Source: Afipia sp.
Lineage (GTDB): Bacteria; Pseudomonadota; Alphaproteobacteria; Rhizobiales; Xanthobacteraceae
Length of the DNA: 64,000 nt
Assembly: GCA_016201045.1 (NCBI GenBank)
Contig: JACQDM010000002.1
Span: 620,001-684,000, forward strand
Direction of reading: 5' to 3'
The notes under the pieces are model-generated. The model made no database searches, was not told the DNA's origin, and saw only the letters and a program-made list of their open reading frames with translations. Below, piece after piece: positions 6,916 to 52,570 of the stretch (the stretch's first letter is position 1; each line of letters begins with the position of its first letter). The position numbers and the translations under genes were made by a program.

Positions 6916-7617
6916 ATGAAATCCGCCGTTCTCGTTTTCCCCGGCATCAATCGCGAACGCGACATGGCGCGCGCTTTGAAACTTATCTCCGGCGTCGCGC
7001 CCGCGATGGTGTGGCACGCGGAGACCTCGCTGCCGAAGGGCACTGACCTCGTCGTCGTGCCGGGCGGCTTTTCCTACGGCGACTATCTGCGATGTGGCGC
7101 GATTGCCGCTCGCGCTCCGGTGATGGACGCGGTCCGCAAGCACGCAGCCAATGGCGGTCTTGTCCTCGGCGTCTGCAACGGCTTTCAGATCCTTTGCGAG
7201 TCGGGACTGTTGCCCGGCGTGCTGATGCGAAACGCACAACTGAAATTCATCTGCCGTGACGTGCATCTGCGCATCGAGCGTTCGGATTCGCCGTTCACGC
7301 GCGGTTACAATGCGGGGCAGGTAATCCGCGTGCCGGTCGCGCACGGCGAGGGCAACTACGCCGCCGATGAAGAAACGCTCAGGCGTCTCGAAGGCGACGG
7401 CCGCGTGCTGTATCGCTATTGCTCGCCGACGGGTGAAGTCGCCGACACCCACAACATCAATGGTGCTGCAGCTTCCATCGCGGGCATCGTCAGCGACAAG
7501 GGCAATGTGCTCGGCATGATGCCGCACCCGGAAAACCATGTCGAAGACATCATGGGCTGCACGGACGGCCGCGGATTGTTCGCGGGACTGGTCGCACATC
7601 TGAAACAGGCGGCCTGA
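6916..7617 (+). CDS. purQ: Phosphoribosylformylglycinamidine synthase subunit PurQ
   Basis: The 233-residue glutaminase subunit of FGAM synthase supplies ammonia from glutamine. The class I amidotransferase nucleophile is Cys87 in [11 protein letters not shown], the oxyanion region is [13 protein letters not shown] (49-61), and the His/Glu of the triad are in MMPHPENH near the C-terminus. It follows purS with a one-base gap. purL is not adjacent: about 1.9 kb with two secreted paralogues and a thioesterase lies between. Confidence 0.97.
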
Positions 7618-7683
7618 GCCCAAAGCAAAAGAAGAATTCAAATCGCGGTCCGTGCGCTGTCCAATGAAGCGTGAGGTGAAACG

Positions 7684-8214
7684 ATGATGAAATTCTGCGC
7701 TGGATTGCTGCTTGCTGCGGCTGGTTTACTCGGCAGCCCCGTCTTGGCGCAAAATGCGCCGAAACAACTCTACAACAAGACCGTCGTCATTCATTGGAAC
7801 GAGTCGCTGCAACAACGGCGCCCGCCCGATACCAGAATTTTCAACGCCCAAGTGACCGCCGTTCGCACGGCCTATGTCAGCAACGCTGGCCGTGTGTTCA
7901 TCCGGGCGTCGCGCTCGAACAAGTCGGGCGGACGCAAGGATGAAACGGCGCCGGATTCGCGGGCCGCCGGCACGCTCGTATTTCAGGGCAACATGATGGT
8001 GGGAACATCCGCGTTCGAAGGCGGCGCGCGGCAAACCCGCATCACCTTTGACCCATCGTTCAACAGTTGCACGGCGAGCGTGGTGTACGGCAAATCCGGC
8101 GATGGGCCGATCCGCTGGAAAAGCTGGGACGGCAACACCTACGAAACCTTGGAGGCCAACATCAGTGCCGTGTCGTGTTCGATCCGCGACGGCAATGCTT
8201 TTGCAGAGCAATAG
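7684..8214 (+). CDS. Secreted protein, first of two tandem paralogues
   Basis: The 176-residue protein has a signal peptide (hydrophobic to about residue 21, ending VLAQ). Its mature part is probably periplasmic. It is clearly related to the next gene: both have NKTV.I, a GR.F.......NK stretch, FQGN/D, GGARQ, TFDPSF.SCTA, and end SCS....GNAFA.. with four conserved Cys that may form two disulphides. No named domain is recognised. An ATG follows at 7687 as well; GAGGTG near 7671 serves either. It lies 66 bases behind purQ but looks unrelated to purine synthesis. Confidence 0.75.
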   Translation: MMKFCAGLLLAAAGLLGSPVLAQNAPKQLYNKTVVIHWNESLQQRRPPDTRIFNAQVTAVRTAYVSNAGRVFIRASRSNKSGGRKDETAPDSRAAGTLVFQGNMMVGTSAFEGGARQTRITFDPSFNSCTASVVYGKSGDGPIRWKSWDGNTYETLEANISAVSCSIRDGNAFAEQ

Positions 8215-49571: not shown

Positions 49572-49699
49572 CATACGCTGCTTGCCGGCGCACCTGATCC
49601 GAAAACCGCTTCACACTTTTCGCTGCGCGGCCGTGCCGGTCGGGGTCATGCATCATCAGCCCTGTTATTTGCGGCGCGGGCGCGCCGTAGAAAATTCGC

Positions 49700-50037
49700 G
49701 TCGCTTGCCCTCATAACGAGGGCGCACGGAACGCCGGATGCGCAACGCATCCGCAGCCTCGCGTGCAAAAGTGGAAAAGCACACGAGCATAGTCACCACG
49801 AACACGCCGAAAACATCCGGCGCTCCGCGCGCAATGGTTTAACCGGCTTGCTCCGCGAACAGGACCCCCGGAGGCCGATCCATGTGTCGTGCCCCCGTTC
49901 ATGGCGCAAGGCGAAGCGCCGGGACCTCGCGGTTTGGGCCGGCTTGCGTGAAGCGCGCCGTCAGCACGGGCGAATGAAAAAATCCCGCCCCGCGCATCGT
50001 GACGATCGCGAAACGCCCCTCAAACTTGGGGCGGGAT
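49700..50037. repeat. Probable dispersed Bradyrhizobium-type repeat and non-coding spacer
   Basis: The 597-base gap from 49572 to 50168 holds no credible gene. From about 49700 it shows sequence of a kind I associate with dispersed non-coding repeats in this group: CTCATAACGAGGGCGCACGG, the inverted CGGATGCG/CGCATCCG at 49734-49752, a stretch near GCGCAATGGTTTAACCGGC, then a GC-rich block. It ends with a 10-bp inverted repeat ATCCCGCCCC (49982-49991) and GGGGCGGGAT (50028-50037). The lower-GC foreign-looking sequence begins right after. The identification is from memory and needs a genome-wide comparison. Confidence 0.45.
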
Positions 50038-50101
50038 GGATAGGAATATAGTCCGCACTAGATCAACGGTCAATAGCCAAATTACTTCGCTACAACGCCT
50101 C

Positions 50102-50134
50102 GCAAGCTTGTTGCAAGATTGTTTACAATATTGC
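50102..50134. promoter_or_regulatory. Three tandem GCAA-N2-TTGY palindromes before the HTH-NTPase gene
   Basis: GCAAGCTTGT (50102-50111), GCAAGATTGT (50113-50122) and, inverted, ACAATATTGC (50125-50134) repeat every 11-12 bases, one helical turn. The last two also form a 22-bp dyad. They end 34 bases before the ATG of the XRE-domain gene and overlap a possible -35 (TTGCAC, 50131) that pairs with TATAGA at 50153. This is the layout of an autoregulatory operator. The same motif recurs after the gene. Confidence 0.7.
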
Positions 50135-50168
50135 ACAATACGGTCTGGCGGTTATAGAGAGATAAAAA

Positions 50169-52265
50169 ATGGGCATTCCTACAAGCGTATTGAGGCGCGC
50201 GCGGGAAGAGGCGGGCCTTAAGCAGAATGATGTGGCTTTGCGTCTGGGTGTCAGCGGAAGCGTGATCTCACGCTTGGAAAAAGCTGACGTCACTACTGAT
50301 GACGTTATGGCTCACCGCTATCTTGAGGCCCTTGGCACAAGTATTGGCTCCGAGATTGCTGCGTTTTATTCGCGGGATTGGCGATTGTCCGACCGCCCGT
50401 CTTTTTTTCATCCCGACCGCGAGGCGCTTTGGAGTGGCGAGCAAGCACTACAACGGCTCGAAGATTTTGCGACAAGTGAAGATTATGATCCTTTGCTCGA
50501 TGTTCCGATCACAAAGATCAAAAGTGGTCTTGAAACTGCCATCGCATTCGTTGGTCGATTGGATCACTCGATGGCTTGGATCGGTTCTGTTGGCGTCGGC
50601 AAAACTACTGCGCTTTCCCTCCTGACAAACCTCGTCGTCGAAGGAAAGGGCGGCATTCGTCAGCCTGTTTTTCCAGCTACCGGCGGTCGCACAACTATTA
50701 GCGAAGTTGTGGTTCGCGCGGCACCAGCTTACGGCATCGCCGTAGAACCCATGAGCGAAGATGCCGTTCGGCTACTCGTTGCTGATCTTGTAAACGGACT
50801 AGCAAAAAACGAGGGTGGAGTTTCGACGGAACTAGAGCGCGCCATTCGTAATATGGCCGATCTTCGTCGGTCGCGGGACGAGAAACGTGGAAACGTGGAT
50901 CCAATTCGAGATTTGTTAGATCAGAAAAAAAATGCCGTAGACGATGTAATCGAAGAAGTAATCGTCCGCATGAACTTAAATGATCGGACGGAGACTCAGT
51001 TGATACTTTCGGAAAGCACTGAAAACGGCCTTCGGTGGCTGTCAGAAAATATTACGACAATAAATTACGGACAACATCAGCGTTTCTCGCTCCCTGAACG
51101 TGTCACTGTTTTTGTACCGCCGTCATTTCTAAGAAAAATGCGTTACGACGTTACGATCGTAGACACTAAAGGAATCCATGGAACAACACTAAGACAAGAC
51201 CTTCGAGCCCATCTAGATGATGCTCGAACGTTATCAATTCTCTGTTGCATGTTTAATGAAGCGCCGGGCGCTGAGGCACTTAAAATGCTTGGAGAGCTTA
51301 AATCACTTGGTTCGGACGCTTTAGATCGCCAGCGCATCGTGATTCTGGTTTTGCCTCGCGGTGATGAAGCCATGAAGATAATTGATGAAAGTGGCGAACA
51401 ACCGGAAACGGCAGAAGACGGTTATGCAATCCGTGCATTACAGGTCGCTGATACGTTCCGAAAGGAAGGACTCCCAGATGTTCCAGTAGTCTTCTTCAAT
51501 GCAATGACCGATATGCCCTCTGTCGTTTGGGATCAGCTTGGCGGGCGAATAGGTGTTTTGCGACAGCGGCAACTGGATCGCTTAAGCAGATTTGTCGATG
51601 TGTCCGCCGATTTAGTGACAAATGCAGACGCAGCAAAAATTCAACAAGCGCGAGTTGCCTTGGCAGAAGAAGTTGTTCGAATGTGCGAAGCCTATGGGAG
51701 GCTTCAACCTCTAGTAAGACCGGCTCATCAAACTCTGCTGGATGAAATTGGGAAGGGCCACGCCAGTTCTATCGCGGCATCTGTAAATCGTCGCGGCGAA
51801 TGGTCAAATTTTTCGGTCATGCACATTATAGGACTCGGTGTTCGAGTTGACGCGAATTTTCGTACGCACGAGGTTTTCACCAAGATCGATGGCCGACTTG
51901 AGGGCCTTTCGCAAAAGTTCTCGAGTTTGCCGGAGGCTGTGACTATCTTGGAATCGTTGAGGGAAGACCTCGAAGAATGGCGCCAGGAGTTTTTGCTTCA
52001 GGCGGTCACGATTGGGCGTGTTGCGTTCAAGCCCTATTTAGATTCAGCGTCAGATCTTTGGAAGGGGCTAGCTGCATACTGGGGGCAAGGGTCCGGATAT
52101 AGGTCTAAAGTCCTTGCAGATATAAGCAGGTGGTTCGAAGAAACCGAAGAAGTCGGCGAGGCGCGCCGTCGCGTAGAGACCCGGCTGCGTGAAGCCTGGC
52201 GTGGGCTCGTTATAAATCGTCTCAAGGCAGCAACGGAGGTGGAGACTACCGAGGCCACTAATTAG
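50169..52265 (+). CDS. XRE helix-turn-helix fused to a large GTPase-like P-loop protein; candidate mobile or defence gene
   Basis: The 698-residue protein has three parts. Residues 3-65 are an XRE-type HTH (LRRAREEAGLKQNDVALRLG, SGSVISRLEK). Residues 130-450 are a P-loop NTPase: Walker A/G1 GSVGVGKTT (139-147), a hydrophobic strand ending in VTIVDTKG (328-335, G3-like DxxG), and FFNAMTD (442-448), where GTPases have NKxD. An unusual insert of about 180 residues separates G1 from G3. Residues 470-698 are mostly charged helix, dynamin-like in look. Two rows counted by hand gave 53% and 43% GC, lower than neighbours, and codons are AT-richer. It stands alone between repeats and groEL. No exact family is recognised; a DNA-binding regulator-effector in phage defence is an inference. 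Confidence 0.75.
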   Translation: MGIPTSVLRRAREEAGLKQNDVALRLGVSGSVISRLEKADVTTDDVMAHRYLEALGTSIGSEIAAFYSRDWRLSDRPSFFHPDREALWSGEQALQRLEDFATSEDYDPLLDVPITKIKSGLETAIAFVGRLDHSMAWIGSVGVGKTTALSLLTNLVVEGKGGIRQPVFPATGGRTTISEVVVRAAPAYGIAVEPMSEDAVRLLVADLVNGLAKNEGGVSTELERAIRNMADLRRSRDEKRGNVDPIRDLLDQKKNAVDDVIEEVIVRMNLNDRTETQLILSESTENGLRWLSENITTINYGQHQRFSLPERVTVFVPPSFLRKMRYDVTIVDTKGIHGTTLRQDLRAHLDDARTLSILCCMFNEAPGAEALKMLGELKSLGSDALDRQRIVILVLPRGDEAMKIIDESGEQPETAEDGYAIRALQVADTFRKEGLPDVPVVFFNAMTDMPSVVWDQLGGRIGVLRQRQLDRLSRFVDVSADLVTNADAAKIQQARVALAEEVVRMCEAYGRLQPLVRPAHQTLLDEIGKGHASSIAASVNRRGEWSNFSVMHIIGLGVRVDANFRTHEVFTKIDGRLEGLSQKFSSLPEAVTILESLREDLEEWRQEFLLQAVTIGRVAFKPYLDSASDLWKGLAAYWGQGSGYRSKVLADISRWFEETEEVGEARRRVETRLREAWRGLVINRLKAATEVETTEATN

Positions 52266-52275
52266 CAAGTTTTCT

Positions 52276-52297
52276 GCAATCTTGCTTGCAATCTTGC
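52276..52297. promoter_or_regulatory. Two GCAA-TC-TTGC palindromes after the HTH-NTPase gene
   Basis: Perfect 10-bp palindromes GCAATCTTGC occur at 52276-52285 and 52288-52297, 12 bases apart. They match the three-site array before the gene (GCAA-N2-TTGY). A looser GCAA-N6-TTGC lies at 52296-52309. They stand immediately upstream of the promoter proposed for the structured RNA, so the HTH protein may control that RNA as well as itself. Confidence 0.65.
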
Positions 52298-52332
52298 AAA
52301 ACCGCTTGCAGAGGACACCGCCTGGGGATAAT

Positions 52333-52499
52333 AGAGGGTGCCGAGTTGTTTCGAGACAACTCAGCTAGGCCCCAGGATAGGGCCTCACCCTGTTCCTGCG
52401 ACCCGTACGTCGGACAACAGCCGTGTTCCAAACCTGCCAGGGGAGGGAACGGAGAGGTTTCCGGGTCGTGGGCCTATTAGCCAGAAATAACGGCTTTTC
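52333..52499 (+). ncRNA. Candidate structured small RNA, class unknown
   Basis: A possible promoter CTTGCA (52305) with 16 bases to GATAAT (52327-52332) would start RNA near 52335-52340. AGGGTG (52335-52340) pairs with CACCCT (52386-52391), closing a domain that holds hairpin GAGTTGT/ACAACTC (52343-52363) and hairpin AGGCCC/GGGCCT. A second domain is closed by CGACCCG (52399-52405) with CGGGTCG (52462-52468) and contains further pairing such as CCGTGTTCC with GGAACGG. AGCC/GGCT followed by TTTT (52479-52498) could end it. I do not find the tmRNA tag, SRP or RNase P signatures. A host 6S-like RNA is the main alternative to an RNA of the HTH-NTPase module. Confidence 0.5.
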
Positions 52500-52514
52500 A
52501 ACGATTTACAAACA

Positions 52515-52542
52515 AAAACCCCGGCGTTTCCGCCGGGGTTTT
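52515..52542. terminator. Terminator downstream of groEL
   Basis: AAAACCCCGGCG and CGCCGGGGTTTT form a 12-bp stem with a TTTC loop, beginning 28 bases past the groEL stop on the minus strand. It can also stop plus-strand RNA from the upstream region. Confidence 0.92.
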
Positions 52543-52570
52543 GCATTTCGTAGTCGCGTTTGACTGCGCG

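Follow-up and report, generated by a model that had tools for sequence, protein, structure and literature searches.

A gene in a 64,000-nucleotide stretch of an Afipia sp. genome (contig JACQDM010000002.1, positions 620,001 to 684,000; this whole stretch is called the window below) encodes a protein in which an XRE helix-turn-helix (HTH) domain precedes a GTPase whose predicted fold matches the dynamin superfamily. The gene (50169..52265, + strand, 698 aa) was delimited as an open reading frame and characterized by Pfam and predicted fold. It is followed by a structured RNA, and short palindromes, the candidate operators of the HTH domain, lie in arrays before the gene and before the RNA. What sequence comparison and structure prediction show is that the two domains are fused, that the predicted fold is dynamin-like, that operators and a structured RNA are present, and that this RNA is linked to the gene in three loci. 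We read the whole as a cargo unit consisting of an autorepressed, DNA-binding dynamin, probably defensive and activated most likely by phage, and a co-controlled, trans-acting RNA partner, and give this overall reading an even chance of being right.

The sequence-only reading of the window had proposed an XRE DNA-binding domain joined to a P-loop protein, which was borne out. Residues 8-65 (50190..50363, + strand) match Pfam HTH_31 (E=5e-10) and HTH_3 (5.5e-9), thus the domain expected of an XRE autoregulator is present, and outside the HTH group no family reached its cut-off in a Pfam scan of the 698-aa protein. The GTPase domain spans about residues 131-450 (50559..51518, + strand). Here, both the G1 and the DxxG motif named earlier proved to be conserved in a 36-row alignment: G139, G142, G144 and K145 of the P-loop (residues 139-147) are kept at a level of at least 90%, and D332 and G335 of the G3 sequence DTKG (332-335) are invariant. 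The canonical G4 motif is [TN]KxD, which was not found in the protein. NAMTD, suggested earlier as G4, may be wrong; LPRGD (395-399) is likelier since it comes after a strand predicted at 390-395 and since P396, R397 and D399 are kept at a level of at least 90% in a 10-row alignment, although not in the 36-row one. The best G4 candidate is therefore PRGD (396-399). Such an odd G4 makes it less safe to call the protein a canonical dynamin GTPase, whereas the fold match is unaffected.

The predicted structure, calculated with the 36-row alignment as input, has a mean predicted local distance difference test score (pLDDT) of 90.4. It displays neck-like helices at residues 84-129, after the XRE domain, and the long helical tail claimed earlier is present as a trunk of about residues 450-689 (51516..52235, + strand), the putative tip of which (residues 510-575) is not hydrophobic. 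All 40 matches in the PDB at E<=0.001 belong to the dynamin superfamily (best 1.1e-7). They include the bacterial dynamin-like protein (DLP) pair 5oxf, the bacterial dynamin-like protein BDLP (2j69), IniA, mitofusins, dynamins, Mgm1 and MxA, the best being 5oxf, 2j69, 5owv and 6j72. Template modelling scores by query are 0.14-0.36 with large root-mean-square deviations, values which multi-domain proteins in differing poses can give, and due to this the superfamily is claimed but no family within it. On sequence level, Pfam Dynamin_N matches two of the 36 rows (best 1.1e-4), and the PADLOC models LeoBC and one LeoA match four (best 7.9e-6) and three rows, so that the support from sequence, though consistent, is weak. 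By structure prediction and PDB search, the GTPase-like NTPase of the sequence-only reading was reassigned to the dynamin superfamily, which that reading had not named.

Like BDLP, DLP1/2, IniA and DynA, the window protein combines a GTPase with a helical trunk in its predicted fold. In contrast to the BDLP type, it carries the N-terminal XRE domain ahead of its own neck-like helices, and no hydrophobic stretch fit for a membrane paddle is present in the protein, the highest 19-residue hydropathy (1.15) being located in the P-loop. A paddle does not define the superfamily, because classical dynamins carry a PH domain and not a hydrophobic paddle (PMC4159319, cited from excerpts). No description of an HTH-dynamin fusion was found in the open-access literature, consulted mostly by titles and abstracts; two mentions of a 'helix-turn-helix', in excerpts of the BDLP and LeoA papers, denote a neck element and not a DNA-binding domain (PMC4159319, PMC2862293).

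The RNA consists of a 5' hairpin (52340..52365, + strand) and a three-way-junction core of about 107 nucleotides (nt) with the helices P1, P2 and P3 with P4 (52368..52474, + strand), which was delineated by covariation and a homology model. The same RNA was found twice more. The stretch behind the window gene aligns with that behind a 78%-identical gene in a second species of the genus (genome G043, L003/L066), and in Mesorhizobium sp. WSM4313 (L069) the RNA stands directly upstream of a 58% relative and ends about 20 nt before its start codon. For each of the three loci a 5' hairpin is predicted in much the same position, shortly ahead of the core. Earlier the RNA had been described as well folded, which holds with this hairpin included: 52340-52476 has a folding energy of -62.2 kcal/mol (z=-3.19, one of 200 shuffles as good), the three loci reach z values of -3.19, -4.05 and -2.28, and 52320-52545, including the terminator, gives z=-2.92. 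The core without the hairpin (52365-52483), however, reaches only z=-1.63, and the case for the RNA therefore rests more on conservation than on stability, conservation being the stronger evidence.

Across the three sequences, 97.2% of the pair cells are standard and both-sided changes occur in 10 of 24 pairs. In four of five measures no shuffle out of 500 equalled this, in the fifth two of 500 did, and only 29-54% of the cells still pair if the partners are slid by 1-3 columns. With three sequences and a structure set by hand, these pairing counts lean towards the proposed structure. Unlike them, a leave-one-out search does not lean: the RNA model R2, built from the window and L066 and leaving out L069, finds the Mesorhizobium RNA at E=1.6e-11 in 796 kb searched. 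The motifs GUAC, ACAGCC and GGAGAGGUUUCC are conserved, and a possible pairing of CCUC in the P2 loop with GAGG in the P3 strand, seen in all three rows and once by G-U, is offered as a suggestion only. Judged from this conservation, the RNA is a real structured element. No window match was obtained in Rfam at the gathering score; with a low threshold the locus gave 17 matches, each of which includes the terminator hairpin and stays below the gathering score of its family, and two weak matches in the L069 region do not cover the RNA. A 6S, signal recognition particle or RNase P RNA is ruled out by the lack of an Rfam match, and a coding sequence by the alignment of the two closest copies, in which gaps of 1, 2 and 5 nt occur. 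The element would represent a structured RNA family new to Rfam 15.

How closely the RNA follows the gene was revealed by a second model, R1, which was run over 70 sources corresponding to 63 distinct gene loci (L036 lacks the gene and six sources repeat others). R1 finds the RNA only at the window, at L032/L066, which are one locus, and at L069, the next match having E=1.7. Within the genus, the gene is present in 2 of 29 genomes and the RNA (E<=0.001) in the same two; a third match (G002, E=0.44) was taken as chance. In 397 genomes of the order, searched with strict filters, the RNA occurs in one, the window's own, and in 146 genomes of the Mesorhizobium genus it occurs in one, that of L069; both carry the gene. 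No RNA copy without the gene was found in the genomes searched. A search of the 397 genomes with the core pattern gave one other match, which is without P3. The same pattern gave 49 stretches in viral contigs, which may be chance hits of so loose a pattern; nine of these have some complement of 5-6 nt nearby, in no case at the distance of 15-17 nt that the real copies show. A plasmid search with the RNA by BLAST returned one and three records, all short and with E of at least 1. The sequence-only reading had named conservation of the RNA at this site without the gene as an observation that would speak against it. This was looked for and not found: among 29 groEL loci the sole match is the window's own. 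The other 28, from 27 further genomes and in part truncated or from a groEL paralogue, gave none, and an ancestral groEL-linked element was rejected on this ground. The simplest reading is that the RNA arrived together with the gene.

The operator consensus RCAANNTTGY starts at 50102, 50113 and 50125 before the gene (array 50102..50134, steps of 11 and 12 bp) and at 52276 and 52288 behind it. The downstream array (52276..52309) consists of GCAATCTTGC twice followed by the in-register half-site AACCGCTTGC at 52300-52309, with TTGC at 52282, 52294 and 52306. The earlier description, GCAA-N2-TTGY three times before and twice after the gene at 11-12 bp, was right in count and spacing, but the third upstream copy starts with ACAA instead of GCAA. 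Two putative promoters were identified by eye, TTGCAC (50131-50136) with TATAGA (50153-50158) upstream, and TTGCAG (52306-52311) with GATAAT (52327-52332) and a 15-bp spacer downstream; at both, the third site overlaps the putative -35 box. The total of seven sites in the window is ordinary (shuffle mean 4.16; 15 of 100 shuffles reach seven). Their clustering, unlike this total, exceeds chance, since five of the seven are packed into two segments of about 35 bp, where 0.00-0.01 would be expected per 180 bp beside the gene.

A survey of 180 bp on each side of the gene in 37 loci, including the window, out of the 63 revealed the operator upstream in 11 and downstream in two. These two are the window and L066, exactly the loci with a downstream RNA. 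The proposal of a regulator-effector controlling both itself and an adjacent RNA is supported as plausible by this coincidence, and it is plausibly one DNA-binding protein that controls both; the downstream operator belongs to these two loci only. In the 10-row clade, upstream sites are present in seven of the nine loci that have upstream sequence, L005 and L069 being the others. L005 carries GGAAAGTTTC twice, 12 bp apart, in place of RCAANNTTGY, and the best sites of L069 agree at 7 of 8 positions (4789 and 4821). In the window and L066, the gene promoter and the RNA promoter each carry a ladder of TTGY half-sites at 11-12 bp, and in L067 and L068 the gene promoter does, against a background of seven in 848 kb of strand; none was found in L069, L070, L071, L006 or L005. 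Other short palindromes, of TTCGC type and GCATATATGC type, were seen by eye before the gene in L009, L010, L012 and L015. Such subgroup-specific palindromes, as judged by eye, give the impression that the recognition helix and its operator vary in step.

Mechanistically, we picture a small, horizontally gained cargo unit that would consist of a soluble dynamin-superfamily GTPase with its own XRE domain and a structured RNA dedicated to it. In the resting state, the HTH would bind the palindrome ladder, the steps of which are about one helical turn, and repress its own promoter, and at the second copy of the ladder it would repress the RNA promoter. The dynamin part may let the protein oligomerize along the ladder. 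The RNA would be made in step with the protein, act in trans, bind the protein and hold it inactive or tune it. If this balance is upset, most likely by phage infection, the GTPase would be freed, assemble and stop the infection. A more far-reaching version, which we propose tentatively and would sooner doubt than rely on, is a dynamin ribonucleoprotein in which the DNA-binding dynamin is governed by the three-way-junction RNA, perhaps pseudoknotted, as an RNA-guarded immune GTPase coupling transcription control, RNA sensing and GTP-driven assembly.

Several findings weigh against the proposed unit. For the RNA, 60 of the 63 gene loci gave no match, an upper bound on true absences because some loci hold partial genes or short flanks (e.g., L072 and L094). 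Seven sister-group loci (49-59% identity) lack it even with filters off (best E 0.16), and the lowest-energy fold of L069 is without P3. In a maximum-likelihood tree of 28 proteins, the window has L066 as its sister and L069 branches off first in the 10-row clade, the fork that sets it apart having support of 93/93, and the presence of the RNA needs two changes on this tree: either one early gain and then loss, or two gains. The absence at 60 loci suggests that the RNA is a partner in one clade and not of the whole family. For the operators, the exact palindrome is absent from the 180 bp upstream in 26 of the 37 loci; these include L069, which has the RNA yet neither exact operator nor ladder, and the window contains two further ladders that lie outside the module, at 1039 and 35152. 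The boxes of the RNA promoter, which had earlier been called plausible, can be read by eye, but a sigma-70 scan called neither this promoter nor that of the gene. As to defence, housekeeping neighbours and no defence island were found at all three RNA loci, no relatives were found in phage records, and the defence-like genes beside relatives described below come from 10 neighbours of six loci, hand-picked as defence-looking and scanned with PADLOC without a background control. The sequence-only reading had stated that homologues without the palindromes or without the RNA would count against it. On both counts such homologues exist, so that this part of the reading is partly contradicted: the RNA adjoins the gene wherever it was found and 11 of 37 loci keep the palindrome upstream, but most homologues lack one or the other.

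An RNA that merely regulates expression and has no protein partner, as a leader of the Mesorhizobium mRNA or a small RNA setting dynamin synthesis, is the alternative closest to this reading, and we regard it as rather unlikely. It draws on the Mesorhizobium RNA ending so shortly before the start codon and on Bartonella, where XRE genes are directly preceded by Brt RNAs, for which action in cis and in trans has been proposed (PMC5387305, excerpts). As in the Brt/Trp pairs, a structured RNA here stands next to an XRE gene in an alphaproteobacterium, in L069 also directly upstream. This is a partial precedent for a layout that was new to the sequence-only reading, although sizes and the downstream position differ: the Brt RNAs have 194-203 nt and the Trp proteins 108-152 aa (PMC5387305), in contrast to a core of 107 nt and a protein of 698 aa with the RNA downstream at two of three loci, the comparison being one of descriptions. 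In the window and L066, the RNA follows the gene behind its own operator array. A leader cannot act there, which leaves the downstream copy as a trans-acting RNA or decoy, and the alternative, which suits the gene order in Mesorhizobium, does not match the downstream arrangement with its own operators. A device for plasmid or mobile-element maintenance, or one of toxin type with the RNA as antidote, appears improbable. Relatives do occur on 20 plasmid records, 10 of them typed conjugative, and HipA, PemK/MazF and RelE/HigA genes are among the neighbours of relatives; against this, all three RNA loci are part of long contigs, and their neighbours are groEL and what we read as rpoD and carB. That the RNA is an unrelated passenger, placed beside the gene by chance or hitch-hiking, would agree with the lack of RNA at most homologue loci. 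Its occurrence at three genomic sites in two arrangements, with matching operators in two, and the failure to find a copy without the gene make this highly improbable.

Type III toxin-antitoxin systems, retrons and defence-associated reverse transcriptases (DRT), as far as their available descriptions go, likewise unite a protein with a dedicated RNA. In type III toxin-antitoxin systems, a series of RNA repeats precedes the gene of a ToxN-like RNase. In contrast, one RNA copy is present per locus here, and the window protein has no Pfam match to an RNase or ToxN-like protein, nor, in contrast to retrons and DRT, to a reverse transcriptase. Closer in protein type is Eleos, a 'Dynamins'-like defence system (PMC11811056, excerpts), and the leoA, leoB and leoC genes are described as neighbouring dynamin genes (PMC4159319). 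The corresponding PADLOC models match family rows weakly, as given above, and the window protein itself not at all. Furthermore, instead of adjoining dynamin genes the window has one dynamin gene with an HTH plus an RNA; two or more side-by-side dynamin genes were not found, the neighbours in the window and L032 being read as housekeeping. For DynA, a delay of phage lysis in Bacillus subtilis has been reported (PMC8844932, excerpts).

The family itself is widespread. A single-sequence scan of genome contigs found no relative, the alignment as query found 45 distinct loci, and a narrow alignment found none in viral contigs. An order-wide protein search matched 13 of 397 genomes, four at full length and nine by short HTH-only matches; at most two candidates were scored per genome and the counts may miss some. 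By record title or listing, relatives span Alphaproteobacteria, Gammaproteobacteria, Cyanobacteriota, Actinomycetota and others. Some adjoin Gabija, Septu, Hachiman or Dpd genes: PADLOC matched six of the 10 neighbours, namely GajA and, in part, GajB in L008, PtuA in L018, a GmrSD-like protein in L012, HamA in L006 (2.6e-138) and DpdB in L007, while four, including all three from L009, were unmatched. From this neighbourhood of relatives, the gene and RNA pair may be a virus-defence device. On two Sphingomonad plasmids, a DUF262 gene starts within 30 bp after the dynamin gene (L012 6192-8096, GmrSD_N by Pfam; L015 5358-7265, by annotation), and this pair is possibly a two-gene version of the system. 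Behind three RNA-less genes (L067, L068 and L072), an open frame of 118, 234 and 241 aa, respectively, starts within 16 bases of the gene end (7093-7449, 7093-7797 and 1446-2171). The frames start alike, that of L067 diverges after the start, and Pfam gave no match for the frames of L068 and L072; the encoded protein may take the place of the RNA.

Dynamins have been described chiefly as machines that act on membranes. A bacterial dynamin family that is widespread, has a DNA-binding domain and is without a hydrophobic tip would extend their roles, and an RNA partnered with a dynamin GTPase offers a testable case.

The earlier claims of a single lower-GC gene and of a self-contained module that looks recently gained are supported. 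The gene has a GC content of 50.7% in comparison to 59.6% for the whole window, the genes of the three RNA loci have 50.7, 49.3 and 48.4% with measured flanks of about 61-66%, and the RNA adjoins all three. The gene was thus apparently gained recently in this Afipia-like bacterium. The relative in G043 lies elsewhere than at groEL, beside genes read as rpoD and dnaG; the names groEL, rpoD, dnaG and carB are those we presume from reading the translations. The left edge of the module is a resident intergenic repeat (49640..50062, + strand), recognized by sequence comparison in the genome and genus, of which the window's genome has three more partial copies, while a further copy adjoins the homologue in the second species of the genus. 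It is a mosaic of about 300-600 bp (further copies: L036 2187-2707, L171 1961-2258, L172 2011-2398 and L032 9444-10062). The same GGAATATA-type edge closes three of the five copies and an AT-richer gene comes next, twice the dynamin gene and once a 215-aa gene of 43% GC without a Pfam match, which suggests that the repeat is a landing site for single genes.

On the other side, a terminator-like hairpin (52515..52542), placed on the - strand by the scan, is ancestral and common to the groEL flank of several relatives. Seven loci of the genus (L038, L043, L049, L055, L056, L053 and L058) carry, 0.3-1.4 kb downstream, a second copy of the groEL 3' end or of its terminator. A two-gene cassette (164-208 and 157-160 aa) fills the gap downstream of groEL in the first five of these; its stretch has 50-54% GC, and the one pair scanned against Pfam gave no match. 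With these duplicated ends and cassettes, the groEL 3' end resembles a hot spot for insertions.

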